A stretch of 64,000 bases of DNA from contig CP136063.1 in NCBI GenBank assembly GCA_032622095.1, positions 39,530,106 to 39,594,105 on the forward strand. Reading direction: 5' to 3'. The notes beneath the pieces were generated by a model. It did not search any database. It saw nothing but the letters and a program-made list of their open reading frames with translations, and had not been told where the DNA came from. This document shows positions 3,931-61,172 of the stretch, piece by piece. The number at the start of each line of letters is the position of its first letter. Positions within the stretch are counted from its first letter, which is position 1. Both the position numbers and the translations under genes were made by a program. Origin of the DNA: Siphonodentalium dalli. Lineage: Eukaryota; Mollusca; Scaphopoda; Gadilida; Siphonodentaliidae.

Positions 3931-4307
3931 GTGATCTGGTAGGGGTATGATTGAGGATTGGCATTCTATTGTCAACACAGAGTCCAGAGCAGTTACAATG
4001 GCCAGCTGTTAACCCGTGCCTGCTACCACCCACATAGCCAACGTTTAAGCAAGTATATATCAGTTGTCAACAACCGGTTCAAAGTAATTTTATCAAAGAA
4101 CACTCAAGAAATATAAAAAAAAAATTGTAATACATCATTCATCACAGTGTTCAGTACATATTCCCATATTTTATTCTTAGATTTGGACCATTGCCTGTAA
4201 ATTAATTTTTTTTAAATCTCAATAAAGTTCACATTTTGTATTTCTAACATAATCCACCATGAAGTATACTCTTAGTCTCAAAATGTTGCATCAATGGGCA
4301 TGGTTTC

Positions 4308-5309
4308 CGGTGACGCGTTATGCAGTAGGTCCCTAGATTTGCGTAGGTCTCCGTAGGTCACTCAATTCGCGTAGTTCCCTGCAGTAATGCAATATATAGT
4401 AGGTCTACATGATTTATTGACTGATAAAATGGATTGATACCACTAAATGATCATGTTAGATGTTACTTTGCAATTTGTTTTTTATAATTAATTTCCGAAA
4501 TCTGATGTGTTTGTTTGCTTAGTGATACTTAGAGGATCATGAAGCCTAACTAAAATAACGTGATTTCTGATCCGGAAAGTAAGAGGATTATCTTACTGGC
4601 TTCGTGGACAGATATTAATTGGAGGATAACTGATTGTATTTTTGCATTGATTTATGTGACTTTTGGAATAGAAAATAAGAGGATTATCAGATTTCTCGAT
4701 TCATCAGTATAGGTGAGTGGGCATGGGTGCGTTAGATAGGAGAATAAGTCGCATATTGAATAATATTAATGAATATGAGTTTGAAAGTCTCAGTGCTCAA
4801 CTTAAGTATCATGGTAATTCTTATTTTTTTTTTCATCTAAGCTAAACAAAATATATAATTTAGATATTTAATTTTTTTAAAACAACGCAATATCATATAA
4901 TATGTTCACTTATTGATAATATATTAGGCATGCACCCTTCCATTACTACGGGGACCTAAATCAATGCAAAAATATATCCAGTAATCCTCTAACTAATATC
5001 TTATCCCGAAGCCAGTAAGATAATCCTCTTACTTTCCGGATCAGAAATCACATAATTTTAGTTAGGCTTCATGATCCTCTAAGTATCACTAAGCAAACAA
5101 ACCCATCAGATTTCGGAAATTAATTATAAAAAACCAATTGCAAAGTAACATCTAACATGATCATTTAGTGGTAGCAATCCATTTTATCAGTCAATAAATC
5201 ATGTAGACCTACTATATATTGCATTACTGTGGGAACCTACGAGAATTGAGTGACCTACAGAGACCTACGCAAATCTAGGGACCTACTGCATAACGCAGTA
5301 CCGGTACCC
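4308..5309. mobile_element. Mutator-like element with long TIRs, about 1 kb
   Basis: Long terminal inverted repeats of about 345 bp (4308-4655 and 4955-5309) share GCGTTATGCAGTAGGTCCC and continue through ATGATCATTTAGTGGTA and GATCCGGAAAGTAAGAGGAT. The flank CATGGTTTC is duplicated at 4299-4307 and 5310-5318. Nine-bp duplications plus long TIRs are characteristic of the Mutator superfamily. The left arm of the foldback (around 1429) gives the undisturbed target sequence, which confirms the breakpoints. No transposase is present. Confidence 0.85.
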
Positions 5310-16288: not shown

Positions 16289-19185
16289 ATGAAAGTGTCA
16301 ATGACACTGTAGCTCAACTTGGAAAGGGAATAATTTAATATATTACAGTCAATGGAGCGATTAGGAATGTGGAAAGTTGAATGTCTAATACTAGTTTATA
16401 GACATGAAGAGAAAAGTAAAATCCAAGATGGCTGCTGGCGGCCATGTTTTCGGCCGAATGACCCCAAAATGAGTCGTTCCCATCTACATGTCATCGTTAA
16501 CATCAATGACAAATTTTATGACGATCAGACTAAAGGTACGACCTGTAGCCCATGCTATAGAATTTAGTCATACAAAGAGTAAAATCCAAGATGGCTGCTG
16601 GCGGCCATGTTTTTTGGCCGATTGACCCCAAAATGACTCGTTCCAATCTACATGTCATTGTTAACATCCATGACAAATTTGATGATGATCAGACTAAAGG
16701 TACGACCTGTAGCCCATGCTAAAGAATTTAGTCATACAAAGAGTAAAATCCAAGATGGCTGCTGGCGGCCACGTTTTTTCCGCCAAATGACCCCAAAATT
16801 ACTCGTTTCCATCTACATATCAACATTAACATCCAGGACAAATTTCATGATGATCAGACGAATCGTACGACCTGTGGCCCGTGCTAATGGATTAAATTTT
16901 GAAATCTAAGATGGCCGCTGGCGGCCATGTTTTTTGTCTGAATGACCCCAAAATGACTTGTTCCCATTTACATTCCAATTTCAACAGCCATGAAAAATTT
17001 TATGATGATCAGACTAAAGGTACGACCTGTAGCCCGTGCTAAAGGATTTAGTCATACAAAGAGTAAAATCCAAGATGGCTGCTGGCGGCCATCTTTTTTG
17101 GCCGAATGACCCCAAAATGACTCGTTCCCATCTACATGTCATTATTAACATTCACGAAAAATTTTATGATGATCAGACTAAAGATACAACCTGTAGTCCG
17201 TGCTAAAGGATTTAGTCATACAAAGAGTAAAATCCAAGATGGCTGCTGGCGACCATGTTTTTTGGCCGATTGACCCCAAGATTACTCGTTCCCATCTACA
17301 TGTCATTGTTAACATCCATGACAAATTTTATGATGATCAGACTAAAGGTACGACCTGCAGCCCGTGATAAAGAATTTAGTCATACAAAGAGTAAAATCTA
17401 AGATGGCTGCTGGTGGCCATGTTTTTTGGCCGAATGACCCCAAAATTACTCGTTCCCATCTACATGTAAATATTATCATCCATGACAAATTTCATGATGA
17501 TCAGACAATCAGTACGACCTGTGGCCCGTGCTAATGGATTAAATTTTGAAATCCAAGATGGCCGCTGGCGGCCATGTTTTTTGTCCGAATTAACATCCAT
17601 GACAAATTTCATGACGATCAGACGAACAGTGCGACCTGTGGCCCGTGCTAATGGATTGAATTTTGAAAACAAAGATGGCCACTGGCGGCCATGTTTTTTG
17701 TCCGAATGACCCCAAAATGACTCGTTCCCATCTACATTCCAATTTCAACAACCATGATAAATTTCATGATTATCAGACTAAAGGTACGACCTGTAGCCGG
17801 TGCTAAAGGATTTAGTCATACAAAGAGTAAAATCCAAGATGGCCGCTGGCGGCCATGTTTTTTGTCCGAATGACCCCAAAATGACTCGTTCCCATCTACA
17901 TTCCAATATCAACAGCCATTACAAATTTTATAATGATCAGACTAAAGGTACGACCTGTAGCCCGTGCTAAAGGATTTAGTCATACAAAGAGTAAAATCCA
18001 AGATGGCTGCTGACGGCCATGTTTTTTGGCCGAATGACCCCAAAATGACTCGTTCCCATCTACATGTCATTATTAACATTCTTGACAAATTTTATGATGA
18101 TCAGACTAAAAGTAGGACCTGTAGCCCGTGCTAAAGGATTTAGTCATGCAAAGAGTAAAATCCAAGACGGATGCTGGCGGCCATGTTTTTTGGCTGATTG
18201 ACCCCAAAATGACTCGTTCCAATCTACATGTCATTGTTAACATCCATGACAAATTTGATGATGATCAGACTAAAGGTACCACCTGTAGCCCGTGCCAAAG
18301 AATGTAGTCATACAAAGAGTAAAATCCAAGATGGCTGCTGGCGGCCATGTTTTTGGGCCGAATGACCCCAAAATTACTCGTTCCCATCTACATGTCAATA
18401 TTAACATCCATGACAAATTTCATGACGATCAGACGAACAGTGCGACCTGTGGCCCGTGCTAATGGATTGAATTTTGAAAACAAAGATGGCCACTGGCGGC
18501 CATGTTTTTTGTCCGAATGACCCCAAAATGACTCGTTCCCATCTACATTCCAATTTCAACAACCATGATAAATTTCATGATTATCAGACTAAAGGTACGA
18601 CCTGTAGCCCGTGCTAAAGGATTTAGTCATACAAAGAGTAAAATCCAAGATGGCTGCTGGCGGCCATGTTTTTTGCCCGAATAACCCAAAAATGACTCGT
18701 TCCCATCTACATGTCATTGTTAACATCCATGACAAATTTTATGACGATCTGACTAAAGGTACGACCTGTAGCCCGTGCTAAAGGATTTAGTCATGCAAAG
18801 AGTAAAATCGAAGATGACTGCTGGCGGCCATGTTTTTTGGCCGAATGACCCCAAAATTACTCGTTCCCATCTACATGTCAATATTAACATCCATGACAAA
18901 TTTCATGACGATCAGACGAACAGTACGGCCTGTAGCCCGTGCTAATGGATTGAACTTTGAAATCTAAGATGGCCGCTGGCGGCCATGTTTTTTTTCCGTA
19001 TGACCCCAAAATGAATCATTCCGGTACAAATGTTGATGTCAACAGCTATGACAAATTTCATAATGATCCGATCAAAGGTACGACCTGTAGCCTCTATTGT
19101 TGACGCGTTACGTACACACGCACACACGGACGACGGACGACAAAGCCATGGCAATAGCTCAAACTTTACAAAGTAAAGTTGAGCT
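16289..19185 (+). mobile_element. Tandem-unit mobile element, copy B (full length)
   Basis: A left terminal block (ATGAAAGTGTCAATGACACT then AGCTCAAC) is followed by about 16 units and a right block (GACGGACGACAAAGCCATGG, ending GTTGAGCT). Unit spacing measured at AAGATGG is 164 or 156 bp. The 164-bp type contains TAGTCATACAAAGAGTAAAA and the 156-bp type has ATTTTGAAATC there instead. One unit near 17580 is shortened. Short frames encoding motifs such as ARATGRT or MKFVMD come from the repeat and are not evidence for a protein. The same architecture is inverted at 50212-52083. Confidence 0.85.
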
Positions 19186-20492: not shown

Positions 20493-20633
20493 CACAGTTG
20501 TTGGAAACTTGTCAAAAAACCCGAAAAGAGATGTCACCACCCCTACTTATTAATATAATTATATCAATTATATTAATAAGTAGGGGTGGTGACATCTCTT
20601 TTCGGGTTTTTTGACAAGTTTCCAACAACTGTG
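20493..20633. repeat. Perfect palindrome, 68-bp arms, 5-base loop
   Basis: Arm 20493-20560 and arm 20566-20633 are exact reverse complements, separated by ATATC. The outer part is CACAGTTGTTGGAAACTTG and the inner part is TACTTATTAATATAATT. A transcript would form a 68-bp uninterrupted duplex. No terminal duplication is evident. Confidence 0.95.
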
Positions 20634-21680: not shown

Positions 21681-23743
21681 GGGTTAGATTCCTGGTTTGT
21701 ATCGTCTTTTTTTCTCGAGTTTAAAACATGTTTTATTAGTAGAAATATACGAAGGTTAGTATTTTTAATTACAGGAAATTTAAATCCGTACATAATATCG
21801 GCTTTAAGGTCATTATGCAAATCACATTTATATTTAACCCAACTGTTTCAACGATCTAACGTACCGGTAGATTTTAATGGAACTTTGTTGTCAAATATAA
21901 AAAAACTTCATGCGTCGATCCTGTGCATGCTAGCACGTCGACATACACCTGTCAATCATCCCGGATTAGTTTGTGAGATTTTATTCTCTGCTTTAATTGG
22001 TTGGCTGTGGGAGGAGCTTACCGATATTTTGTTCTAATGTGGTATGCTTTGACACCATAACCGAGATTTGGTAAATAAAATGATTCCCATGTTTTTATTA
22101 GAGTTACTATTATTTTTGAAAAAAAATATGAGCATATTAAATAAAAGTGTTATATTATCGATCCATATATGTGGCAAATCCATTGCCAAGTAAAAATTAA
22201 TTGCCAGAAACTGAAAATACGCGACATTTTACACTTTGCTCGATCTATAAGTCCACGATATTTGCCACCAGAGGATGGACTGAATAAAGATTACACAAAC
22301 AATGTGTGTTGAAAAACAAATTAGAATTGTGATGGGACACGTGTATAAGGTCAAAAGGAATAATGCACACGTTTCCCCGAACGGACACCCCGAAATTAGG
22401 GGTGGGCGGTAAGCTTTTCAATTCATTTAATGTTTTCCGTTTTATTATGCATTAACAAGCTATTGAAAATACACCATTTATTGTATTCTCTACCAACATT
22501 CCTAAATATAAGAATTTAGTCATCATATTCAAATAAAAAATTTCATGTTGACAAGTTTTGAAAACCACTAGCCCTGATCAGAAAATGCAGATAATTCGGG
22601 GAAAACCTCGCGTGCACAAACAACCACGCGGTCAATACGTCATGCATGCGTTTATTACTGGTATAATTTATGTACTAGTAGGAATCTGGATTTTAAAAAC
22701 CAGACAGATATGACATATATTGACAAGTATAGTATCTCAACAAACATGCTTACTGTAATAGAGTTTCATAAATAAATAAACATTGGAATACACAGCGGCG
22801 CCGTATACGCCAATAAAAAAAACGGAGAACCACGATTCTTTTGTTTTCGCAACGGCAGTACATTCTCAGATATTCCCGTTTTGTTGAAGCGATGCGCTCT
22901 GGTGCCGTGTTTCCCAGAACGCAATGACATTGTTTGCTACATCGTAACTGTTTGAGTTAACATGATTATGACATGTCACTTTCTCCTCGATATTCCCTTT
23001 CAAGTTTTATCAAAGTTCAATTGGCATGCTGTCGCAGTTTTGTCTTTAAATTAACCACGGTATTGAAAGGATTTGAATATTTAGGTTCATAAAATCTTCG
23101 CGGGAGAAAAATACCTGATCACGCTCTTTATTGTTCATTCTGAAGACAATTCTGGCACAGATTTTTATACATTCAATGGACGGCAGTGAATTCCAAAAGG
23201 AGGTCCACATGGGTGGATGTTGTCAGTATATAATTCAAACCAAATAATAGTTTTAATTAATGTAAAAAAAAAAAAATTTAACAAGAGAAAACAACAACAA
23301 ATATTTCAACATGGGCAAACAAACAGTTCAAAGTAGGATGCGACAATCCTTATTTTATAATCAGTCTTAAATGACAGCATAGTGATTCAATTCTCTCATG
23401 GTGAGGCTGCCACGTGTGCACGACATTCCAATGCTTATTTCTCAAAAAGACACGTGCTGCCAAATCTAGATGAAGTCTGTTGTCGGCAACATCACACTTC
23501 CGTGTCGCCTAATAATTATCAGCGGGAGCCTTTTCTAATCAGGATGGATTATGACACCTTGATTTTATGACAGTTTACTGGTGGGACGTACGTTGACTAC
23601 TTAAAAGATTATCACACCTTGTCACCAGACAGATTAACCCTCAAACATATAATAGATCGTCTGACGGACGGTATTTAGACAATGGCCTCAATCAAGCCTC
23701 ATTTATGGTGCCCTCTTTGTGTTTTTCAACATCATTCCAAGAA

Positions 23744-23935
23744 CGGCAAGTACACCGCGGTCGAACGGCAAGTACACCGCGGCCGAACGGCAAGTACACC
23801 GCGGCCGAACGGCAACTACACCGCGGCTGAACGGCAAGTACACCGCGGCCGAACTGCAATCAGCCGGTGGAGCCGCCGTGTTGTTGCAGTTCGGCCGCGG
23901 TGGCAACGCAAACCGCACCGCGGTTAAGTGGACAC
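23744..23935. repeat. 22-bp subterminal array, right
   Basis: Six near-identical units in the same strand orientation as the left array, then a degenerate unit and an inverted pair (TTGCAGTTCGGCCGCGGTGG). An identical copy is at 28489-28680. Confidence 0.92.
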
Positions 23936-23977
23936 TTGTTTTGTCCAGCGGGGTATAATTAAGTTTTTGGTATACAC

Positions 23978-26900
23978 ACCTTCTCAAAATAAGTGGCCCT
24001 TTTAACGCAGTCCTCAACGTGGTCGTAACGCCAACGCAACGCGGTTTTTGCGTTGATAACGCGTTGTTGATACGTTACGACCGCGTTTAACGTAGACTGC
24101 GTTGAAGTTTAACGCAGACCGCGTTTACGTTAAACACGTTGCGCTAATGATCAACGCACAGTCGCACACACGTTTTCAAATGTATATATTTGTTTTTAAA
24201 TATTTGATGAGGACACATAAAGAAACTGAATTGCAGTGATTTAATTCTGGTGAGAAAAACAGAATTTAACTGAATTATTAAACTTATATATACTACTAGT
24301 ACAGTAAAAAGTAAAAGTTAATATTTACCATACATGTATGCTTGCCAATACAATAGCGGACAATTACTGAAACATGTAACGTCTCTTCGAAGCCACGTTG
24401 AGTAAGTTTATTTCATCATCGTGAAAGTGACACGGCCTCATTGCGTGATCATTGTGGCACACGATGTCCGCTAGCCAATCAAAACAGACAAAGTTATGCT
24501 TGCACGTGTCCAGTCGAGAATTCTGTGTTTGAATCACAGTCAATCAATACAGAATACAAGCTGGTAGGAGGAGTCATCTTCACAAAGTTGCTACATGGTA
24601 TAAAAATATCTTGCAGAAATTCCTTTGATCTAAATTTAATAATAACTTCAAAGAACGAGACAATGTCACCATTCAGCAGCGTGCGTGGTCCAATAGAGGT
24701 TCGCGATGGGGAAGTTATGTTTTCCTTGTATTAAAGGGGCACTGATATCTGGATAATATTTTACAAACTACCGACGAGAGGCTAATGAAAGTCCGAATAA
24801 TCAAGTCATGGTATTCTTCGACATAAATCACAAATCGTGTTTATTTTATAATGATTATTGGTTTATTTAATGCTACATGTACATGCACGTGTATACTGGT
24901 ATACATAACGAGCGTCGTGAACATTTCTGGAATTTTTCATGGCGTTTGTTTATGGCGAAAATAAACGCGCTTTATTGTTTCATACCGTTTCGGCCGACAT
25001 TGGAACTGACACAATACCCTTGGTCTATACATGAGCGTACAGGTAATCGACATTTAAACGGATATGACGCTGAATATTAAATATTCAAATAACACACATA
25101 CATGTACATGTACATAGCGATGTGACATCAATATGTTTTGTTTGTTAGCAGTCTCGATTACGTTTCCATTAATTCGTGCAGCGCGATCAACGTGATTTAC
25201 ATTAATTTATTATTTTTTCCAGGAAAAAATCTAAATGTGGGCCAATATGTAAAACATTTTAACACAAATATATCATGCATTACTCCCATCACGTCAACAA
25301 CATTGTATTATTTTGAAAACTTTCCATTTCGTTGATGGTTATCTCAACTGCGTTTGTTGCGTGACGGTTTACTCGACCGCGTTGTGATCAACGTGATCTA
25401 CATGTATTTATTAGTTTTTTTCCCGGAAAAATCTAAATGTGGGCCTATATGTAAAACATTTAACACTAATCAGAATGCATTACTCTCGTCACGCAAACAA
25501 CATTGTATTATTTTGGAAACATTCCATTTCGTTGACGGTTATCTCGACTGCGTTTGTTGCGTTGACGGTTAACTTGACCGCGTTTGTTGCGTTGGCGGTC
25601 ATGCCGATTTTTACATACTGCATGTACACATATCAATCAATTTTCAAATATGGGTGGAGTTACAGAAAATTATCTGGTGGTGGTGTGTTTTTTTTAGCGG
25701 GACATTAAATTACCGTATATATTTTGTCCGGCATCGGCGTTTGAAATCAAATGGGTAATCCATTATGTGTCGACTGTAGACTTGTGATTTGAATTGTTAA
25801 TATTTTACGATGTACCGCTATTCTCAAAGTAATTGACCAGAAAAACGGGGTGATACCCCGGTCATGACCGCGGTGATGCCGGTAATAAACGGTAGTGGTA
25901 TCAAGACGGTCATGGCAGTGGAGTTACGGTATTGGGCGATAATGATACCGCGGTCTTTTAGCGGGCACCGCATTAATTTTGTTGAATACCGCGGTGATTT
26001 TCATGGAACTGTTTGAGGGGAGGTATTTACTCACACATACTTGTTCGCGTTAACAAGCGGTATCAGTACCGCGGTATTGGAGGATACAGCGGTATAGTAC
26101 CGCCATATTAATGGGGTGACACCACGTTATTGGTGGTCAATTACTTTAAGTATAGCGGTACTTGTCAGTAGTAATGATAACGAATTTCGGAGAATACTGT
26201 AAATATATGTGCAAAAGAACTTTTTATTATATGAGGTTTTGATGACTAGATATCGCCTTTGAAGAGAATACATTTAACTCACTTGTTGTCAGTCTTACAA
26301 AAAAATTCAAATTATCGCTTCTAATAAAGAGCGTCCATGTTTACACCGAAATGTGGTATGTAATAAAGAGCGTTTAAATTATGATAGTTTGTACTCGTTT
26401 TCAATGTAAAACCACAAACGTATCTATATAGATCGATAATAAAACGGTGGACATTTGTGTGTTTTTTTTGCGATTTCTGTGACATAATAATTGATGGTGA
26501 CTATATTAAAGTTTTCTTTTATAACCCGGAAATCTAGAAAAAAACAATTTTGTCTAATTTGGTATCTACTGCGTCGGACGGCGCTTGGATCTTCAAATGT
26601 ACATTGTACATTGTTTTCAAATATTTGATGAAGACAAATAAATAATTGAATTGCAGTGATTTAATTCCGGTGAAAAAAAAACTGAAGTTAACAATATTAT
26701 TCAACTTATATATCCGACGGTAAAAAGAAAGTTAATATTATCATATGCTTGCCTACACAATAGCGGATTATACATTGTTGGTCTCTTCGAAGCACCATTG
26801 AATACGAATGATTTCGTTATTTCATCATCAATGAATAAAGTAACACCTGAACAAGACTTCATCGAGTGGTCACTAGCCAATCAAAACCGACGAAGTTATG

Positions 26901-27458: not shown

Positions 27459-30400
27459 CATATATTGACAAGTATAGTATCTCAACAAACATGCTTACTG
27501 TAATAGAGTTTCATAAATAAATAAACATTGGAATACACAGCGGCGCCGTATACGCCAATAAAAAAAACGGAGAACCACGATTCTTTTGTTTTCGCAACGG
27601 CAGTACATTCTCAGATATTCCCGTTTTGTTGAAGCGATGCGCTCTGGTGCCGTGTTTCCCAGAACGCAATGACATTGTTTGCTACATCGTAACTGTTTGA
27701 GTTAACATGATTATGACATGTCACTTTCTCCTCGATATTCCCTTTCAAGTTTTATCAAAGTTCAATTGGCATGCTGTCGCAGTTTTGTCTTTAAATTAAC
27801 CACGGTATTGAAAGGATTTGAATATTTAGGTTCATAAAATCTTCGCGGGAGAAAAATACCTGATCACGCTCTTTATTGTTCATTCTGAAGACAATTCTGG
27901 CACAGATTTTTATACATTCAATGGACGGCAGTGAATTCCAAAAGGAGGTCCACATGGGTGGATGTTGTCAGTATATAATTCAAACCAAATAATAGTTTTA
28001 ATTAATGTAAAAAAAAAAAAATTTAACAAGAGAAAACAACAACAAATATTTCAACATGGGCAAACAAACAGTTCAAAGTAGGATGCGACAATCCTTATTT
28101 TATAATCAGTCTTAAATGACAGCATAGTGATTCAATTCTCTCATGGTGAGGCTGCCACGTGTGCACGACATTCCAATGCTTATTTCTCAAAAAGACACGT
28201 GCTGCCAAATCTAGATGAAGTCTGTTGTCGGCAACATCACACTTCCGTGTCGCCTAATAATTATCAGCGGGAGCCTTTTCTAATCAGGATGGATTATGAC
28301 ACCTTGATTTTATGACAGTTTACTGGTGGGACGTACGTTGACTACTTAAAAGATTATCACACCTTGTCACCAGACAGATTAACCCTCAAACATATAATAG
28401 ATCGTCTGACGGACGGTATTTAGACAATGGCCTCAATCAAGCCTCATTTATGGTGCCCTCTTTGTGTTTTTCAACATCATTCCAAGAACGGCAAGTACAC
28501 CGCGGTCGAACGGCAAGTACACCGCGGCCGAACGGCAAGTACACCGCGGCCGAACGGCAACTACACCGCGGCTGAACGGCAAGTACACCGCGGCCGAACT
28601 GCAATCAGCCGGTGGAGCCGCCGTGTTGTTGCAGTTCGGCCGCGGTGGCAACGCAAACCGCACCGCGGTTAAGTGGACACTTGTTTTGTCCAGCGGGGTA
28701 TAATTAAGTTTTTGGTATACACACCTTCTCAAAATAAGTGGCCCTTTTAACGCAGTCCTCAACGTGGTCGTAACGCCAACGCAACGCGGTTTTTGCGTTG
28801 ATAACGCGTTGTTGATACGTTACGACCGCGTTTAACGTAGACTGCGTTGAAGTTTAACGCAGACCGCGTTTACGTTAAACACGTTGCGCTAATGATCAAC
28901 GCACAGTCGCACACACGTTTTCAAATGTATATATTTGTTTTTAAATATTTGATGAGGACACATAAAGAAACTGAATTGCAGTGATTTAATTCTGGTGAGA
29001 AAAACAGAATTTAACTGAATTATTAAACTTATATATACTACTAGTACAGTAAAAAGTAAAAGTTAATATTTACCATACATGTATGCTTGCCAATACAATA
29101 GCGGACAATTACTGAAACATGTAACGTCTCTTCGAAGCCACGTTGAGTAAGTTTATTTCATCATCGTGAAAGTGACACGGCCTCATTGCGTGATCATTGT
29201 GGCACACGATGTCCGCTAGCCAATCAAAACAGACAAAGTTATGCTTGCACGTGTCCAGTCGAGAATTCTGTGTTTGAATCACAGTCAATCAATACAGAAT
29301 ACAAGCTGGTAGGAGGAGTCATCTTCACAAAGTTGCTACATGGTATAAAAATATCTTGCAGAAATTCCTTTGATCTAAATTTAATAATAACTTCAAAGAA
29401 CGAGACAATGTCACCATTCAGCAGCGTGCGTGGTCCAATAGAGGTTCGCGATGGGGAAGTTATGTTTTCCTTGTATTAAAGGGGCACTGATATCTGGATA
29501 ATATTTTACAAACTACCGACGAGAGGCTAATGAAAGTCCGAATAATCAAGTCATGGTATTCTTCGACATAAATCACAAATCGTGTTTATTTTATAATGAT
29601 TATTGGTTTATTTAATGCTACATGTACATGCACGTGTATACTGGTATACATAACGAGCGTCGTGAACATTTCTGGAATTTTTCATGGCGTTTGTTTATGG
29701 CGAAAATAAACGCGCTTTATTGTTTCATACCGTTTCGGCCGACATTGGAACTGACACAATACCCTTGGTCTATACATGAGCGTACAGGTAATCGACATTT
29801 AAACGGATATGACGCTGAATATTAAATATTCAAATAACACACATACATGTACATGTACATAGCGATGTGACATCAATATGTTTTGTTTGTTAGCAGTCTC
29901 GATTACGTTTCCATTAATTCGTGCAGCGCGATCAACGTGATTTACATTAATTTATTATTTTTTCCAGGAAAAAATCTAAATGTGGGCCAATATGTAAAAC
30001 ATTTTAACACAAATATATCATGCATTACTCCCATCACGTCAACAACATTGTATTATTTTGAAAACTTTCCATTTCGTTGATGGTTATCTCAACTGCGTTT
30101 GTTGCGTGACGGTTTACTCGACCGCGTTGTGATCAACGTGATCTACATGTATTTATTAGTTTTTTTCCCGGAAAAATCTAAATGTGGGCCTATATGTAAA
30201 ACATTTAACACTAATCAGAATGCATTACTCTCGTCACGCAAACAACATTGTATTATTTTGGAAACATTCCATTTCGTTGACGGTTATCTCGACTGCGTTT
30301 GTTGCGTTGACGGTTAACTTGACCGCGTTTGTTGCGTTGGCGGTCATGCCGATTTTTACATACTGCATGTACACATATCAATCAATTTTCAAATATGGGT

Positions 30401-32203
30401 GGAGTTACAGAAAATTATCTGGTGGTGGTGTGTTTTTTTTAGCGGGACATTAAATTACCGTATATATTTTGTCCGGCATCGGCGTTTGAAATCAAATGGG
30501 TAATCCATTATGTGTCGACTGTAGACTTGTGATTTGAATTGTTAATATTTTACGATGTACCGCTATTCTCAAAGTAATTGACCAGAAAAACGGGGTGATA
30601 CCCCGGTCATGACCGCGGTGATGCCGGTAATAAACGGTAGTGGTATCAAGACGGTCATGGCAGTGGAGTTACGGTATTGGGCGATAATGATACCGCGGTC
30701 TTTTAGCGGGCACCGCATTAATTTTGTTGAATACCGCGGTGATTTTCATGGAACTGTTTGAGGGGAGGTATTTACTCACACATACTTGTTCGCGTTAACA
30801 AGCGGTATCAGTACCGCGGTATTGGAGGATACAGCGGTATAGTACCGCCATATTAATGGGGTGACACCACGTTATTGGTGGTCAATTACTTTAAGTATAG
30901 CGGTACTTGTCAGTAGTAATGATAACGAATTTCGGAGAATACTGTAAATATATGTGCAAAAGAACTTTTTATTATATGAGGTTTTGATGACTAGATATCG
31001 CCTTTGAAGAGAATACATTTAACTCACTTGTTGTCAGTCTTACAAAAAAATTCAAATTATCGCTTCTAATAAAGAGCGTCCATGTTTACACCGAAATGTG
31101 GTATGTAATAAAGAGCGTTTAAATTATGATAGTTTGTACTCGTTTTCAATGTAAAACCACAAACGTATCTATATAGATCGATAATAAAACGGTGGACATT
31201 TGTGTGTTTTTTTTGCGATTTCTGTGACATAATAATTGATGGTGACTATATTAAAGTTTTCTTTTATAACCCGGAAATCTAGAAAAAAACAATTTTGTCT
31301 AATTTGGTATCTACTGCGTCGGACGGCGCTTGGATCTTCAAATGTACATTGTACATTGTTTTCAAATATTTGATGAAGACAAATAAATAATTGAATTGCA
31401 GTGATTTAATTCCGGTGAAAAAAAAACTGAAGTTAACAATATTATTCAACTTATATATCCGACGGTAAAAAGAAAGTTAATATTATCATATGCTTGCCTA
31501 CACAATAGCGGATTATACATTGTTGGTCTCTTCGAAGCACCATTGAATACGAATGATTTCGTTATTTCATCATCAATGAATAAAGTAACACCTGAACAAG
31601 ACTTCATCGAGTGGTCACTAGCCAATCAAAACCGACGAAGTTATGACAGCACGTTTTAAATCGAGAATTCCGTTTGAGTCGCATGGTATCACTCTCCACT
31701 TTACCGAAGACACGCCCCGTATTGTATTTGCGTCTATTGACACCGCTGTCAATCATTCGCAGCATGCTTCTTATCCGCGGTCTGTTGGTTAAAGTGACAA
31801 ATCACTGGTAACCAAATCTGAGCGCTGTTTGTTTTACACATGTATTTCACAACACATGGATAATTAATATTCTAAATTATTGCATCACTGTACATGTATA
31901 TCCATGTGTCAATTACGAACGTGCGTGTAAATGTAGATGTGTGTTTTATCGTACCCTCACGAAGATTTCAAATGACATCGGACCCTTGGCGTACAGGTTA
32001 TTGACCTTTATTAGGAGGTGACGCTGAATATTAAATTTTCAAAGAATACACGTACATGTACATTGCGACGTGAACTCAAAGATTTTTGTTTGTTAGAAAT
32101 CTCAATTGCATCTCTATTAATTCGTGCAGCGCTATCGATGTGATCTGCATTTATTTATTATTTTTTTCCAGAAAAATTCTAAATGTAAATGTAAAAAATC
32201 ACC
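27459..32203. repeat. 4745-bp tandem duplication, copy 2
   Basis: Copy 2 ends at AATCACCA, beyond which the sequence becomes unique (ATAAATCATGC). It contains the right part of the 21468-type element (27459-28702) and the left end of the ACCTTCTC element. It also carries the 350-bp MITE at 30557-30906. Confidence 0.95.
30557..30906. mobile_element. 350-bp MITE with ACCGCGGT motifs, copy 2
   Basis: Exact copy of 25812-26161, carried by the 4745-bp tandem duplication. Confidence 0.78.
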
Positions 32204-42995: not shown

Positions 42996-44640
42996 AAATA
43001 TGAAAACGCCTTATCTATATCCTATAGTGCGCATATCCTACAGGTCTGGGTGAACCACCGATCAATCAATAATAGCCCGATCGGGCTAAAATATACCGAT
43101 CGGGCTAAAATAATCCCATCGGTCTTTCACAGCCAGCATGAATCTTGGATAAAGGGAGTAGGCCTACTCTAAATTGTTCTTTCAAGTTACAACCATTTTT
43201 TTGTAAAAAAAATTATTCTTATTCATTTTGAAACTAATGAAAGACAATTTTGAAACTAATGAAAGACAATGTATAATTTTTTGCTGGTATATTCATCATA
43301 AATTTGAACAAATCTTCAAGCAAACAAAATTTCAATATTCAAGAAATCTCTTACAACAGTGTCAGGAAGACCAATCGATCTAGCTCAGCACGATTGGTCT
43401 ATTGTGATGTCAAATATTATTGAAATATTGCTTATAATTTACATTTACAGAAGTCAATAATTCGCATGCAGATAACTTCACCTTGTATTCGGCCAAATAT
43501 GTTGACGTTAGATTAGAAGGCAGAATTCCCAGATTTGTTTATTATTGGTGAACCTGGATAATTTCGGAGGTGTGCCAATCGTCTTTTGCACACTGTGAAT
43601 ACGTACTCATTCTCTCCTAAATTTGCAAAAATTCCATATATATATAAATATATATACAGAGTGTGAAAACTTTGTTAGTTGCCAAATAATTGTCGACATT
43701 TTACTTAGAAAACTTGAATGCAAAAACTATGATAGGCCCCCTATTATTATTTTATTTTTTTTCTCTTTTTGTTGAATTTACTTTCGTTATCGACATGCCG
43801 GCCTTTGTTTTGCCTGTTCTCCCAGTCGTGCGTGCCAGCCGATCGTCGTTATTCGGGTGGTTCCGATTTCCTCCGAATATAATTCCATGAGACTCCGCGC
43901 GCTGATTCGCTCCGAAAATGTGTTAGTATCTGAGAAGATTTCTTACTCTGATCGCAGTTTTCAACAATTTAATACAGGGCGAGTACCGCACTAATAATAT
44001 GCCACATTGGGGTTTTCTTTCTAGTTTTTTTATGACCTTTCTTGTGGTATATCGGGCACAGTTCTGTCTGACATCAAATATATGCCCACCGGGAGTGAAG
44101 CTAATGACTTTAATGGTTCAGTCAACCTATATTTATATTATTTTATATTTTACTATAGAGTTTCAGCCAGAGGGTTCTGTTTTATATTTATACTAATTAA
44201 TAGAATTTCAGCCAGTTATTGATGGTTCAGTTTCTACTGCTGCTGAGCTCTAGCCACTAATCCATATGAAACATAATTGAAGTTTCCACACATATCCATG
44301 AGTGGGAGGAGCTGTAGATACCATTCTGAGGATATACATGTATATCTCACCTGGCACCAATACACTGCAGGTGTGTAATATCTGCTTTATATACTGGTAC
44401 TTAATGTTATGTTTGTTGAATAATTTAATACGTCTATACAGATAAAATGTATAACACTATATATATGTTCTTTCCCTATCGCCATCTACCATGATTTGTG
44501 GAATTTATGTCTGAACATCATGTGTCCATCTTTCATACGACATGTGTACAACGGACTGTGACAATTTTTGTTTTCGGGAGCCATAGCATCTTCCTCACAC
44601 ATTAAGTAGTCATCGGAATAGTTCCACTCATCATCTGGTA
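42996..44640. other. Intergenic, small local repeats
   Basis: CCGATCGGGCTAAAATA doublet at 43078-43112. Twofold 23-bp repeat TTGAAACTAATGAAAGACAA at 43229-43270. No supported gene. Confidence 0.45.
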
Positions 44641-44756
44641 CTTGGAACAAGTAAGTTCTTTAACACGTTCAACATTAATATGTACATGCACAGTTTTCCA
44701 TGTTGATTCGACTTCCAACGGCTGGTTAGTTAGTTGTGGCTTTCTTTTGGTAAAAC

Positions 44757-44925
44757 TTGGAGATGATCTTTGTTCACATATCGCCACATCTGAGTCTGAA
44801 TCCGGGCATTTTTTCCCGCTGAATGCCGTTGTCGGTTGTGTGCATGTTCTGGTCCACGTCTGTTTACCTAGGTCACATTATTTACTACATAAACCTTATT
44901 CCAGAGCACTTGAGATATTTTGGTA
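44757..44925 (-). pseudogene. TSP1 module copy A (frameshifted)
   Basis: Minus-strand sequence aligns with the open TSP1 module at 48456-48641. One base is missing just after the Trp-Asn codons (TGGAATAAGGTT in place of TGGAATAATGGT), and a later codon is a stop, so the Trp to first-Cys part is out of frame. At the C-terminal end the final Cys codon is changed to Ser. Copies A and B lie 283 bp apart and share the frameshift, so the unit was damaged before it was duplicated. Confidence 0.75.
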
Positions 44926-45041
44926 TACAGAACCAACTCCTTTTATATGCTCAACATGAATATACCAGTATGTACATGCACAGTTTTCCATGTTTTTTTA
45001 CTTTAAGGGCTGGTAGTCGTGCCTTTTATTTGTTTAAACTT

Positions 45042-45210
45042 GGACATGATCTTTGTTTACAGATCGCCACATCTGAGTCTGAATCCGGGCATTTTTCCCC
45101 GCTGAATGCCGTTGTCGGTTGTGTGCATGTTCTGGTCCACGTCTGTTTACCTAGGTCACATTATTTACAACATAAACCTTATTCCAGAGCACTTGAGATA
45201 TTTTGGTATA
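45042..45210 (-). pseudogene. TSP1 module copy B (frameshifted)
   Basis: Nearly identical to copy A, 283 bp downstream in coordinate, with the same one-base deletion. The last Cys is kept here (AICKQRSCPS). Confidence 0.75.
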
Positions 45211-45213
45211 CAG

Positions 45214-45618
45214 AACCAACTCCTTTTATATGCTCAACATGAATATACCAGTATGTACATGCACAGTTTTTCATGTTTTTTTACTTTAAAGACCAGCTGA
45301 ATAATACAATTAATTTAGCTCCAAACATATCTAAATATGTCTTAACTCATGCTAAATAAGGTTTATAACATGTATCCTTTCCATTTTGTTCACATTTTTA
45401 CAAAAAAGTACTATTTCCAGACATTTGAATAAAACGGCTTCTTTGTTTACAATAGTCATTTTTGAATCGGGTGTTTCCGTCGATACTCGGAAATGACGTC
45501 ACCGAGGGTACAAAGACGGAAGAAATTTTATGCGCCGTTTTTAAAATCACGTATTTTGAAATCGTCTTTTTTTTATTGTTGTTTATTTTTTTGAAGAATA
45601 AAACGTATTCGTCGCTGC
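45214..45618. other. Spacer, no gene
   Basis: No coding signal except the THAP remnant that follows. Confidence 0.35.
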
Positions 45619-45814
45619 ATGGCTACAAACTGTAGCCATAAATGTTCAAGTGGCACAAGAATTAATGCAGCCATTCAACAACATTGGACGGCGTTTGTCC
45701 ACAACGAGAGTTTGGAATGGGCTGTCACAATACAGCTGCTTGTGTTCCAAGCACTTTGAAGAAGGATCTTTCACAAATATTGTGAAATTTAAGCTGGGAC
45801 ATACAAAAGTGTGA
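45619..45814 (+). pseudogene. THAP-type zinc finger remnant
   Basis: From ATG at 45619 the first frame reads MATNCSHKCSSGT, then HWTAFVHNESLEW. After about 45720 the similarity moves to another frame, which reads SQYSCLCSKHFEEGSF, then TNIVKFKLGHTKV and a stop. THAP domains have a C2CH zinc site: two N-terminal Cys, a conserved Trp, then the strongly conserved LCSxHF motif near residue 55. This order and spacing is what is seen, with one frameshift. THAP fingers occur in P-element-like and some DDE_Tnp_4 transposases and in host transcription regulators. Here it is a broken fragment. The DDE fragment at 49923 is on the other strand, so the two are not one gene. Confidence 0.6.
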
Positions 45815-48455: not shown

Positions 48456-48641
48456 TTAAACTTGACATGATCTTTGTTTACAGATCGCCACATCTGAGTC
48501 TGAATCCGGGCATTTTTCCCCGCTGAATTCCAATGTTGGTTGAGTACATGTTCTGGTCCGCGTCTGTTTACCTAGGCCACACGATGTACTACATACACCA
48601 TTATTCCAGCGCACATCAGCCATTTTGGTATACAGAACCAA
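48456..48641 (-). CDS. TSP1 (thrombospondin type-1 repeat) exon, open copy C
   Basis: The minus-strand frame of 61 residues contains one complete TSP1 module: W12, then six Cys at 17, 21, 32, 44, 54 and 59, with the signature CSTSCGLGKQTRTRTC and the Gly-Glu-x-Cys and Cys-x4-Cys ends. TSP1 modules are extracellular, disulphide-stabilised beta folds that bind glycans and proteins. They occur in tandem in ADAMTS, hemicentin, properdin and many molluscan secreted proteins. One module per exon is common, and the exon could end at the GT in TGTCAAGTTTAA. No signal peptide or flanking domain is present, and the ATG is probably internal to an exon. The neighbouring copies are damaged, so this may be the one surviving exon of a gene or a duplicated exon array. 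Confidence 0.6.
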   Translation of the reverse strand: MVLYTKMADVRWNNGVCSTSCGLGKQTRTRTCTQPTLEFSGEKCPDSDSDVAICKQRSCQV

Positions 48642-48747
48642 GTCCTATAACATGTTCAACATTAATATGTACATGCACAGTTGTCCATGTTGATTCGACT
48701 TCAACGGCTGGTAGTCGTGCCTTTCATTTGTTAAAACTTGGACATGA

Positions 48748-48957
48748 TCATTTTTCACAGAGCGCCACATCTGAGTCTGAATCCGGGCATTTTTCCCCGC
48801 TGAATTCCGTTGTTGGTTGAGTACATGTTCTGGTCCGCATCTGTTTATCTAGGCCACACGATGTTCTACATACACCAGCACATGAGCCCAACACTATCTT
48901 CAATATTGAATCCTCGATCCGCATCTGTTCTACATACACCATTATACCAGCACACAT
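48748..48957 (-). pseudogene. TSP1 module copy D (altered ends)
   Basis: A 69-residue frame retains CRTSCGLDKQMRTRTCTQP and SGEKCPDSDSDVALC. The N-terminal Trp region is replaced by a 5' duplication (SCAGVC after an extra GIMVYVEQMRIEDSILK stretch), and the frame stops before the last Cys. The copy lies about 281 bp from C. Confidence 0.65.
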
Positions 48958-49016
48958 GAGCCCCGCACTATCTTCAATATTGAATTATCAGTGAGCTAGA
49001 ACTATATATCCAGGCA

Positions 49017-49140
49017 AAAGTATGTTTAAAAGACCACTGTTCTCTTGTATGCTTATCACTTGTCCGTCCTCCTGGTGCATTTGAAATGAATGACAGTTTT
49101 TTGTGTGGATTTTCCTATTAAATATTTAACAGTTTCTGCT
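49017..49140. repeat. Flank of TSP1 unit D: paralogous empty site
   Basis: Bases from AAAAGT.TGTTTAAAAGACC onward match 49410-49422 joined directly to 49814-49925. This shows the sequence before the TTAA element inserted. Confidence 0.88.
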
Positions 49141-49194
49141 TAAGTATAGTACGCGGTCCTCGAGGTTAGTTAGTTGTGCCTTTCTTTTGGTAAA

Positions 49195-49360
49195 ACTTGG
49201 ACATGATCTTTGTTCACAGATCGCCACATCTGAATCTGAATCCGGGCATTTTTCCCCGCTGAATTCCGTTGTTGGTTGAGTACATGTTCTGGTCCGCATC
49301 TGTTTACCTAGGCCACATGATGTACTATATAAACCTTATTCCAGCGCACATTAGCCCCAC
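49195..49360 (-). pseudogene. TSP1 module copy E (frameshifted)
   Basis: Same one-base loss after the Trp codon as copies A and B. The Cys-rich remainder is intact in the second frame (MRTRTCTQPTTEFSGEKCPD, and RSCPS at the end). Flanking sequence beyond it duplicates the flank of copy D. Confidence 0.7.
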
Positions 49361-49422
49361 ATTATCTATAATAACGAATCATCGGTGAGCTAGCACTATA
49401 TCCCAAACAAAAGTCTGTTTAA

Positions 49423-49813
49423 CCCTTTACCCAACAGAAGGGCCCTGTGCCAATGCATTCTCTTATATATGCGAGTCGACCATAGGTCGCCTCGCATATA
49501 TAAGAGAATGCATTGGCTTAACACATTAAAAATTATAAAATTGTTAAAGAATGTAAGAAAAAATGGTAAAAAGTGTTAAAAACAGATTTTTTTAGGCCAA
49601 TGCATTCTCTTATATATGCGAGGCGACCTATGGTCGACTCGCATATATAAGAGAATGCATTGGCACAGGGCATAACTGTAACTATCACAATGTGGTCAAG
49701 GAGCCGGTTCCAATGATATCCATATTTGTATGGTTCTATTGAGACAGACCGAAGATATTTTAGGCTGTTGAAGCTTTATTTGGCCGGTTTTGGCCGGTTT
49801 GTTGGGTAAAGGG
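49423..49813. mobile_element. piggyBac-like TTAA element built of two hairpins, 391 bp
   Basis: TIRs CCCTTTACCCAACA and complement are flanked by TTAA at 49419-49422 and 49814-49817. A CCC start with TTAA duplication is the piggyBac pattern. Inside are two 69-bp hairpins (49449-49517 and 49596-49664) that are inverted copies of each other. Each has arms GCCAATGCATTCTCTTATAT continuing ATGCGAG, so the whole is a palindrome made of palindromes. The empty site at 49017-49140 confirms precise TTAA insertion. No coding. Confidence 0.88.
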
Positions 49814-49922
49814 TTAAAAGACCACTGTTCTCTTATATGCTTATCACTTGTCCGTCCTCCCGGTGCATTTGAAATGAATGACAGTTTCTTGTGGGGATTT
49901 TCCAATTAAATATTTAACAGTA

Positions 49923-50207
49923 TTATGATGTTTTTGCGTGGGCTTCGAGGTTAGTTGGCCGGTCTACAGATATTTCGAAGCAGTCGATTATGACAGCTGT
50001 TTTCAGTCTAAAGTCTTCACGGAACACCATGGGTACGGCTAACATCAGCTCATCCCGACCCGCCCAAAACACAAACCTTTCCATTTTGGTATACATAATA
50101 TGAATAACAGTGATGAATGTTTTGGTAATAGTTGACTGCGAAACTCTGAACCTATATGCTAAGTCCTTTGTTTGTAGGTTGAGACGCAATCGCATCAACA
50201 CTATCAT
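49923..50207 (-). pseudogene. DDE_Tnp_4-type transposase fragment (PIF/Harbinger/ISL2EU-like)
   Basis: The minus-strand frame reads IVLMRLRLNLQTKDLAYRF, then RVSQSTITKTFITVIHIMY: the helix-turn-helix (HTH_Tnp_4) region with its DLAYRFxVSQSTxxxxF motif (residues about 1-40). Residues 60-94 read PMVFREDFRLKTAVIIDCFE, then ISVDRPTN. The Asp in VIIDCFEI is the expected first acidic residue of the DDE catalytic triad that cuts DNA. The frame then stops at KTS, and the second Asp and the Glu are missing. The N-terminal side is interrupted by the tandem-unit element at 50212, and decayed upstream sequence continues at 52085-52245. This is a dead transposon gene. Family recognition is from motif memory. 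Confidence 0.75.
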
Positions 50208-50211
50208 TTTT

Positions 50212-52083
50212 AGCTCAACTTACTTTTGTAAGTTTGAGCTATTGCCATGGCTTGGCGTCCGTCGTCCGTGTGTGCGTGTGTCCGTCAACAATTTCCTTTG
50301 GCGCGGGCTACAGGTCGTACCTTTGGTCTGATCTTTATGAAATTTTGCATGAATGTTGACATTGACATGTAGATGGGAACGAGTCATTTTGGGGTCATTC
50401 GGCCAAAAAACATTGCCGCTGGTGGCCATCTTGGATTTCAAAATTCAATCCATTGGCGCGGGCTACAGGTCGTACTGTTCGTTTGATCATCATGAAATTT
50501 GTCATGGATGTTAATATTGACATGTAGATGGGAACGAGTCATTTTGGGGTTGTTCGGCCAAAAAACATGGCCGTCAGCAGCCATCTTGGATTTTACTTTT
50601 TGCATGACTAAATCATTTGGCGCAGGCTACAGGTCGTAGTTTTGATCGGAACTTCATGAAATTTGTCATGGATGTTAACAATGACATGTAGATGGGAACG
50701 AGTGATTTTGGGGTTGTTCGGCCAAAAAACATGGCCGCCAGCAGCCATCTTGGATTTTACTCTTTGCATGACTAAATCCTTTGGCGCGGGCTACAGGTCG
50801 TACCTTTGGTCTGATCTTTATGAAATTTGTCATGAATGTTGACATTGGCATGTAGATGGGAACGAGTCATTTTGGGGTCATTCGCCAAAAAAACATGGCT
50901 GCTGGTGGCCATTTTGGATTTCAAAATTCAATCCATTGGCGCGGGCTACAGGTTGTGCTGTTCGTCTGATCATCATGAAATTTGTCATGGATGTTAATAT
51001 TGACATGTAGATGGGAACGAGTGATTTTGGGGTCGTTCAGCCAAAAAACATGGCCGCCAGCAGCCATCTTGGATTTTACTCTTTGCATGACTAAATTCTT
51101 TGGCGCGGGCTACAGGTTGTAGCTTTGGTCAGAACTTCTTGAAATTTGTCATGGATGTTAACAATGACATGTAGATGGGAACGAGTGATTTTGGGGTCGT
51201 TCGTCCAAAAAACATGGCCGCCAGCAGCCATCTTGGATTTTACTCTTTGCATGACTAAATCCTTTGGCGCGGGTTACAGGTCGTACCTTTGGTCTGACCT
51301 TTATGAAATTTGTCATGAATATTGATATTGACATGTATATGGGAACGAGTCATTTTGGGGTCATACGGCCAAAAAATATGGCCGCTGGCAGCCATCTTGG
51401 ATTTCAAAATTCAATCCATTGGCACGGGCTACAGGTCGTACTGTTTGTCTGATCATCATGATATTTATCATGGATGTTAATATTAACATGTAGATGGGAA
51501 CGAGTCATTTTGGGGTCGTTTGGCTAAAAAACATGTCCGCCAGCAGCCATATTGGATTTTACTCTTTGCATGAATAAATCCTTTGGTGCGGGCTACAGGT
51601 CGTAGCTTGGTCGGAACTTCATGAAATTTGTCATGTATGTTAACAATGACATGTAGATGGGAAACGAGTCTTTTTGGGGTCGTTCAGCTGAAAAACATGG
51701 CCGCCAGCAGCCATCTTGGATTTTACTCTTTGCATGACTAAATCCATTGGCACAGGTTACAGGTCATATCTTTGATCAGATCATTATGAGATTTGTAAAG
51801 GCTGTAGATGGGAACAAGTCATTTTGGGGTAATTCGGAAAAAAACATGGCTGCCGGTGGCCATTTTAGAATTTACTCTTTGCATCAATAAATCCTTTGGC
51901 ACACCATAATCACCACATCCCTGATCCGATCATTATGAAACCTGTTATGAATGTTGATATTGACATGTACATCTAGTCTTACTTAGACATTTCAATTAGC
52001 ACTTTTCCTATTCCTCCATTTACTGTCGACCATTAAATTATTCCCCTACCTAAGTTGAGCTACAGTGTCATTGACACTTTCAT
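50212..52083 (-). mobile_element. Tandem-unit mobile element, copy C (inverted)
   Basis: Reverse orientation of the 16289-19185 element. It begins AGCTCAACTTACTTTTGTAAG with GGCGTCCGTCGTCCGTGTG and ends GTTGAGCTACAGTGTCATTG then ACACTTTCAT. About ten diverged units carry TTTGGGGTC, GCAGCCATCTTGGATTTTAC and GGCGCGGGCTACAGGTCGTA. It separates two parts of a DDE transposase pseudogene. Confidence 0.87.
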
Positions 52084-57608: not shown

Positions 57609-58089
57609 TTTAAAGGTACTCAATCCGTTAAAACTCCGCTCAATTACTATTTCTTTGGCTTCGGGGGTAAAAAATATTTGATTCGAGTCGAGGAACCCAT
57701 CAAACAAAGCTCAGAGGTGTTAGATATTGATTTTTGAAATTTTTTTATTTACTCGAGATGACTACTAATAATTGCCTTCAAGCTGTCGTTATCTGCTCGG
57801 GATGTGTATACCAAAATTTATTCTAACAGTCAAGGATGGATAACTCTAAAATCAAGTGGTAATAATAACGCAATTTTGACTGAGTTCGGGGAACAGAAAG
57901 TATTCCCGATAATGAAAAATAATAGATTTCTAAAATATGTGTTTTGTTTGATGAGTTCCTCGACTCGTATCAAATATTTTTTACCTCCGAAGCCACGGAA
58001 ATAGTAATTGAGAGGAGTTTTATAGGATTGTTGTTGTTGGAATCTGTTGAGACGGGGGAACCCCCCTGTTCGGATTGAGTACCTTTAAA
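57609..58089. mobile_element. 481-bp foldback MITE
   Basis: Ends TTTAAAGGTACTCAATCCG and CGGATTGAGTACCTTTAAA. The arms continue inward through CTCAATTACTATTTC, TTTTACC or GGTAAAA, and CGAGTCGAGGAAC. Confidence 0.82.
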
Positions 58090-60395: not shown

Positions 60396-60410
60396 TGGGT
60401 TTTACAGTTA

Positions 60411-60727
60411 TACCCTGTGCCAATGCATTCTCTTATATATGCGAGTCGACCATAGGTCGCCTCGCATATATAAGAGAATGCATTGGCCTAAAAAAAATCT
60501 TTTTTAACACTTTTTACCATTTTTTTCTTACATTCTTTACCAATTTTATAAATTTTTTCTTACATTTTTTAACAATTTTTATAATATTTTTCTACATTCT
60601 TTGACAATTTTATCATTTTTAATATGTGTTAAGCCAATGCATTCTCTTATATATGCGAGGCGACCTATGGTCGACTCGCATATATAAGAGAATGCATTGG
60701 CACAGGGCCGTTCTGTTGTGTAAAGGG
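60411..60727. mobile_element. Second copy of the hairpin-pair TTAA element
   Basis: Two hairpins (60419-60487 and 60633-60701) match those at 49449-49664. The right end GTGTAAAGGG abuts TTAA (60728-60731), as in the first copy. The left end stops resembling copy 1 after TTACAGTTATACCCTGTGCC, and no left CCCTTTAC is found, so the copy is truncated or rearranged. The spacer is longer than in copy 1 because a TTCTTACATTCTTTA-type unit is repeated. Confidence 0.8.
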
Positions 60728-61172
60728 TTAACACCCAAGGTAAGAGTCACACCTCTTGCTGTCTGTCTTAACTTCGTCTTCTTCCACCCACCAGCGGGTG
60801 GGTAAATGGGAACAGAACATGTGCCGTCGGAAAGGCTTCGGGTTGAAATTACACTCAATCACAGGACACTTTGAGTCTAGATTTTCTGACGACGCTGGGT
60901 GAAGCATAACCTGGGGGTTAAATGCCACTCTCCTTTCCCTTTGTTCTGAAGAAGATCTTTCTCGAGGCTTTGGTGATTACTGTCTTCGCGGCATTGAGGA
61001 TGATGTACGAGTTTCCGTCTTCTGACTGAACCTGCCTTCCCTTAATCGATGTGTTGATGAGGGTCTTTGAGCTTCCGTCTGCTGACTGAAACTCCATCCC
61101 CTGATTCGTGGTTCTGATGGTTTTCGAGCTTCTGTCTGCTGACTCAACCTCTTTTCCTTTGTACTCGGATTT
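60728..61172 (-). pseudogene. Exon-like sequence: 20-residue repeats plus a C2H2-type finger
   Basis: The minus strand has a strong acceptor at about 61172 (TTCTTATTTTCCAG then GAAATCC). The frame reads three repeats of about 20 residues with cores RLSQQTEARKPS, SFSQQTEAQRPS and RFSQKTETRTSS. It then meets a TAA in MPRRQ*SPKP, at the position where a fourth degenerate repeat would be, and continues in the same frame to CPVIECNFNPKPFRRHMFCSH and LPTRWW. The latter has the C-x4-C-x9-H-x4-H spacing of an atypical C2H2 finger. The frame ends at DSYLGC* directly at the TTAA border of the hairpin element. The single in-frame stop could mark a pseudogene, a sequencing error or an unrecognised intron. 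The family is not identified. Confidence 0.5.

Follow-up and report, generated by a model that had tools for sequence, protein, structure and literature searches.

The locus described here raises the question of how a short sequence carrying two long, mutually inverted hairpins came to lie between TTAA copies in one of two duplicated units whose counterpart has TTAA alone. Within the window, by which we mean the whole 64-kb stretch of DNA that was analysed, TTAA stands on both sides of the element, its inverted ends are of the CCCTT type, and the empty and filled sites form a sharp pair; these are direct observations. The element is very probably a non-autonomous piggyBac-like MITE that would have been moved in trans by a TTAA cut-and-paste transposase of the piggyBac-like kind, and whose hairpins would have arisen by inverted duplication.

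Both sites lie among open frames with TSP1 repeats:
44605-44877, 45029-45160, 48459-48644 and 48751-48984, minus strand: open frames matching Pfam TSP_1.
49129-49335, minus strand: TSP1-repeat open frame between the empty and filled sites (Pfam TSP_1, E=3e-08).

The five minus-strand frames submitted to Pfam all matched TSP_1, four above the curated cut-off and one below, which bears out the TSP1 units that the initial annotation had placed near the site. Five plus-strand frames from the region gave no TSP_1 match, the domains being on the minus strand; a motif check for TSP1 in frames of at least 45 aa on both strands returned none. In the minus-strand sense the empty site falls between the fourth and fifth TSP_1 frames and the filled site upstream of the fifth, and the element probably sits beside TSP1-repeat exons, within an intron. 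A plus-strand frame at 45602-45811 is weakly THAP-like (Pfam E=0.016, below cut-off) and is perhaps a transposon remnant.

The two sites, in units termed D and E, and the element itself are delimited as follows:
49026-49029, no strand: single TTAA of the unoccupied paralogous site in unit D, from alignment to the joined E flanks.
49419-49422, no strand: left TTAA of the occupied site in unit E, from the D/E comparison.
49814-49817, no strand: right TTAA of the occupied site in unit E, from the D/E comparison.
49423-49813, plus strand: body of the piggyBac-like MITE, 391 bp long; just inside TTAA, its ends CCCTTTACCCAACA are inverted at 14/14 positions.

The alignment of unit D (48942-49133) with the E flanks continues unbroken across the site, where D has one TTAA. 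Right of the TTAA, 99 of 104 aligned bases match; on the left (48942-49029, TTAA included) 71 of 87 match, with 1 further gap column. At the break, D agrees with the left E flank, counted with its TTAA, at 17 of 20 positions and with the right flank at 19 of 20, against only 4 of 20 and 3 of 20 when compared with the element sequence past either break; the break is therefore exact, and the alignment agrees with the earlier description of duplicated flanks holding TTAA alone in one unit and the 391-bp element between two TTAA copies in the other. The two units are paralogues, not alleles. The sides of the site diverge unequally (16 mismatches in 87 positions on the left, 5 in 104 on the right), so the history of the D/E duplication was not simple, and conversion or stepwise duplication in a tandem array is suggested. 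No third copy of the whole D/E site was found within the 64-kb window: the right flank gave best scores of 29 and 33, nothing clearly above the 24-30 of shuffled sequences, and for the left flank there is a partial relative, near 48870-48916, which ends before reaching the TTAA.

Beyond the 14/14 inverted positions the pairing continues more weakly, reaching 27 nt at 89% with TTAA counted in, and the ends are of the CCCTTTAC(A/C)CAACA kind. The window has 488 TTAA positions, and 4 pairs of them with a separation of 60 to 3000 bases show 14/14 inverted ends: the element at 49419-49817 and three others, one of which consists of simple A+T-rich sequence. A 479-bp inverted-repeat stretch at 57610-58088 also has TTAA on either side. 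Its ends, AGGTACTCAATCCG, agree at 14/14 positions and its inner arms of 93 nt pair at 89%; the AG start fits a Kolobok/T2-type MITE better than piggyBac. A TTAA pair at 4488-5123, inside the arms of a large inverted repeat at 4302-5309 (372-nt arms at 91%, 264 nt apart), looks incidental.

CCCTT is reported as the best conserved end motif of piggyBac elements and TTAA as their usual duplication (PMC10813416), and coral piggyBacs and their MITEs have, among others, CCCTTTCCC or CCCTTTAAG ends with TTAA (PMC2872659). The element follows the rule for short terminal inverted repeats (TIRs) beginning CC(C/T)T given in these two sources (PMC2872659, PMC10813416), and its TIRs CCCTTTACCCAACA are inverted at 14/14 positions. 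It is flanked by a TTAA target site duplication and is small (391 bp), with no long open frame and no transposase gene: none of the 7 stop-to-stop frames of at least 150 aa in the window overlaps 49423-49813. The TTAA duplication, the CCCTT end motif and the small non-coding size make it fit a piggyBac-like MITE. Such MITEs are expected in many copies of homogeneous size; the 64 kb holds one full and one incomplete copy. No transposase was seen in the 64-kb window, where the longest of the 7 frames reaches 248 aa; a full piggyBac transposase has roughly 500 aa (PMC10813416). Exact-match scans for further copies gave 0 matches in viral and prokaryotic collections, which say little about a eukaryotic repeat. 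There is nothing unusual in the insertion that distinguishes D from E; the oddity lies in the nested hairpin, and the element as it stands is one well-placed MITE insertion with an odd internal structure.

That structure comprises the following parts:
49442-49521, plus strand: left arm of a large inverted repeat, holding hairpin 1; 80 nt, 99% complementary to 49592-49671.
49592-49671, minus strand: right arm of the large inverted repeat, holding hairpin 2, from an inverted-repeat search.
49449-49517, plus strand: hairpin 1, a 69-nt near-perfect palindrome whose 33-nt arms are 97% complementary and enclose a 3-nt loop.
49596-49664, minus strand: hairpin 2, by sequence comparison the exact reverse complement of hairpin 1.
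49518-49595, plus strand: A+T-rich spacer of 78 bp.
49672-49813, plus strand: remainder of the body to the right of the nested palindrome, with the right TIR; its only counterpart in the window is the TIR of the second copy.

The element had been called a palindrome of two 69-bp palindromes. Two mutually reverse-complementary 69-nt palindromes are indeed present, but the whole element is no palindrome: the nested structure covers 230 of its 391 bp (49442-49671) and lies off-centre, toward one end, with hairpin 1 beginning at base 27 of the body and 70 nt between the 80-nt arms. An off-centre T/C mismatch in hairpin 1 has its mirror image in hairpin 2; the homology of the arms passes the hairpin by 7 bases on the outside and 4 on the inside. 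The hairpins score 29 in a palindrome scan of the window, where 20 order-1 Markov simulations of 64 kb gave best palindromes of 8 to 11 in 19 cases and 16 in one. The window holds 10 non-overlapping palindromes scoring at least 16, including the four hairpins of the two copies, and two that score higher (68 and 37), so this segment is rich in large palindromes, and what stands out more is the nesting. The top score of the scan belongs to a perfect palindrome at 20493-20633, with 68-nt arms and a 5-nt loop.

Folding favours one long stem for the 230-nt stretch (-158.1 kcal/mol as RNA) over two hairpins (-115.3 kcal/mol when the pair span is limited to 75); the z-scores are -21.91 for the full element as RNA and -27.10 for the hairpin pair as DNA. 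These energies and z-scores restate the palindromes and are no evidence of function. Rfam gave no match at gathering scores over the whole window. Relaxed thresholds over 49400-49830 returned 26 matches, 23 of them to miRNA precursor families; all fall below gathering scores, and a long hairpin may give such matches. We claim no miRNA identity.

A second copy, placed by the initial annotation at 60411-60727, is present, with slightly wider bounds, in inverted orientation and with a single outer end:
60402-60731, minus strand: second, incomplete copy with one TTAA and TIR end, the hairpin pair and a 145-bp spacer; the other end is missing.
60633-60701, minus strand: hairpin adjoining the TIR end, on that strand identical to hairpin 1.
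60419-60487, minus strand: the other hairpin, on that strand identical to hairpin 2 of the first copy read on the plus strand.

All four 69-nt hairpins are thus one sequence once oriented. The TTAA end of the second copy has 2 mismatches in its outer 23 bases relative to the first. Beyond its other arm, it follows the closing 146 bp of the element, a stretch that takes in the right TIR and TTAA, for the first 10 bases and then diverges. A Smith-Waterman search of the window for this missing right part found only the second copy's own TIR on one strand (score 37) and, on the other, a score of 26 at the level of shuffled sequences (26-28); the second copy was therefore broken or incompletely made and, having no second end, it shows no clean insertion. 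With one complete copy and another that lacks an end, a single locus carries the case for mobility of the form with hairpins.

The spacers of the two copies differ mainly by length: the 145 bp of the second holds 3.7 units of period 32 (Tandem Repeats Finder), and the 78 bp of the first, judged by eye from the alignment, amounts to about one such ~32-bp unit. The inverted arms of the hairpin pair are 80 nt in the first copy and 86 nt in the second. An expectation that the hairpin pair would be constant and the spacer variable holds in the only two copies at hand. With gap columns ignored, the copies mismatch at 1 of 160 arm positions and at 4 of 103 other positions (p=0.079); this difference is not significant, and we do not claim faster change outside the hairpins. 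Tandem arrays of a 164-bp repeat lie at 56-677, 16415-19092 and 50294-51900, the last being by eye the reverse complement of the other two, and tandem-repeat and TTAA features at about 23741-25800 recur at 28486-30545 with a constant offset of 4745 bp, which suggests a tandem duplication.

Had the hairpins entered separately, duplications of their own might frame them. We saw none around the pair or around single hairpins, in a test that has low power for 4-base duplications and covers two copies only. Direct repeats around the pair, allowing up to 10 bases of slop, reach 5 bases in the first copy and 4 in the second; those around each hairpin reach 6 bases, the 6-base ones lying inside the hairpin itself. 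As background, repeats of 3 to 6 bases occur at 1861 of 2000 random positions, and at the true insertion the same scan returned TTAA (4) together with a chance 5-base repeat, ranking TTAA no higher than chance. Separate insertion of the hairpins is unsupported, not disproved. Foldback elements have long structured inverted repeats as termini, framed by a duplication; the long arms here are internal, so the whole element is not of this kind. That the pair alone is a foldback-type element which entered a piggyBac MITE, leaving the MITE merely its carrier, would accord with its own inverted arms in both copies and with its near constancy between them (159 of 160 arm positions unchanged, 99 of 103 elsewhere). 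We consider this improbable: no target duplication is seen around the pair (a weak test), the difference in divergence is not significant, and both copies have the same outside sequence on both sides of the pair, which would confine any such entry to at most one, before the copies parted. Long palindromes are also prone to assembly and library errors, but the same nested structure recurs at two loci that differ in both flanks and spacer, and the flanks of the first match an unoccupied paralogue; an artefact is accordingly very hard to credit.

The direction of the D/E difference is a further matter. Insertion into E is the simpler direction, and there is good evidence that a piggyBac-like MITE has moved with TTAA precision; the initial annotation went further in holding that the empty site proves insertion, which is too strong, since precise excision is usual for piggyBac (PMC2872659), D and E are paralogues, and there is no third copy to give polarity. 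With excision usually precise and no third copy to give polarity, the D site could be the seamless excision product of a once-occupied duplicate, the element being older than the duplication; as this takes one event more than insertion into E alone, we regard it as an unlikely history. An element of the Kolobok type (T2-MITE), which also targets and duplicates TTAA, would be expected to begin differently: Kolobok ends begin RR and those of T2-MITEs AGGRR (PMC6004289). The CCC ends of the element do not share this purine start and place it outside that group, to which it is extremely unlikely to belong.

For a piggyBac-like MITE whose hairpins arose by inverted duplication, the likely course can be outlined. 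An ancestral element would have had a single imperfect palindrome near one end. This palindrome, with its GCCCTGT neighbour, would then have been duplicated in inverted orientation, perhaps by template switching in gap repair after excision. One such duplication is simpler than two insertions as an account of the mirrored T/C mismatch and of the 7 bases of homology beyond the hairpin's outer edge. The hairpin pair would from then on have been carried along as part of the element; the common TIR outside one arm and the 10 shared bases outside the other indicate that it was inside before the copies parted. The length of the A+T-rich spacer may have shifted by gain or loss of ~32-bp units.

Each hairpin has a core reading TGCGAG...CTCGCA, which we take to recall the TGCG...CGCA of the Trichoplusia piggyBac repeat, with different spacing. 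Most probably the hairpins are passengers or else an enlarged form of the short transposase-binding palindromes near piggyBac ends, and a passenger is more likely than a working module. A module would consist of giant subterminal palindromes correcting themselves by arm-to-arm conversion and either raising mobility, through clustered transposase binding or cruciform-assisted end pairing, or shielding the family by way of dsRNA; we think this rather doubtful. A preprint suggests that the inner repeats of such elements could form hairpins or cruciforms (PMC12324416), and the piggyBat paper reports that subterminal sequences can inhibit transposition (PMC11707139). Constancy of the pair over many copies, if borne out, would provide a natural experiment on whether transposition is promoted or impeded by large palindromes close to piggyBac ends, as well as a series for following the rise and lasting identity of nested palindromes; if the module reading were true, this would be an architecture of piggyBac MITEs not met in the literature searched.

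In that literature, which lay outside Repbase and most subscription papers, there was no piggyBac-type MITE with nested hairpins of this size, which is weak evidence of novelty. The closest systems share parts of the architecture. CMITE, the piggyBac-like MITEs of Acropora corals, are likewise small and non-coding with a TTAA duplication; most families have CCCTTT ends, filled and empty alleles are reported, and the internal region is better kept than the TIRs, but the elements are about 100 bp with a 75-base internal region, and the available portions of that account describe no comparable nested palindrome (PMC2872659). MSITEs such as Microuli share the TTAA duplication and subterminal inverted repeats and are described without TIRs, in contrast to the 14/14 TIRs found here (PMC2872659). 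In the Xstir repeats of a Xenopus TTAA MITE an internal segment of a MITE has likewise been amplified as repeats, but that MITE has T2/Kolobok-type ends (PMC6004289).

The claim that the architecture is unusual stands for its size and nesting, but palindromes near piggyBac ends are known. MER85/PGBD3 of primates is piggyBac-derived, with TTAA, short TIRs and a palindrome near the 5' end; this is a 16-bp imperfect palindrome needed for PGBD3 binding, rather than a doubled 69-nt one (PMC3459987, PMC2268245), and is bound by the CSB-PGBD3 fusion (PMC3459987). In piggyBac and piggyBat, palindromes also lie close to the ends in an asymmetric arrangement and are bound as duplex by C-terminal Cys-rich domains; those of piggyBac, near both ends, are 19 bp, and piggyBat has a short imperfect palindrome three times at one end (PMC11707139). 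On the best reading, the element is a variant of the piggyBac-like MITE, an already known kind, and the nested hairpin pair is what differs.
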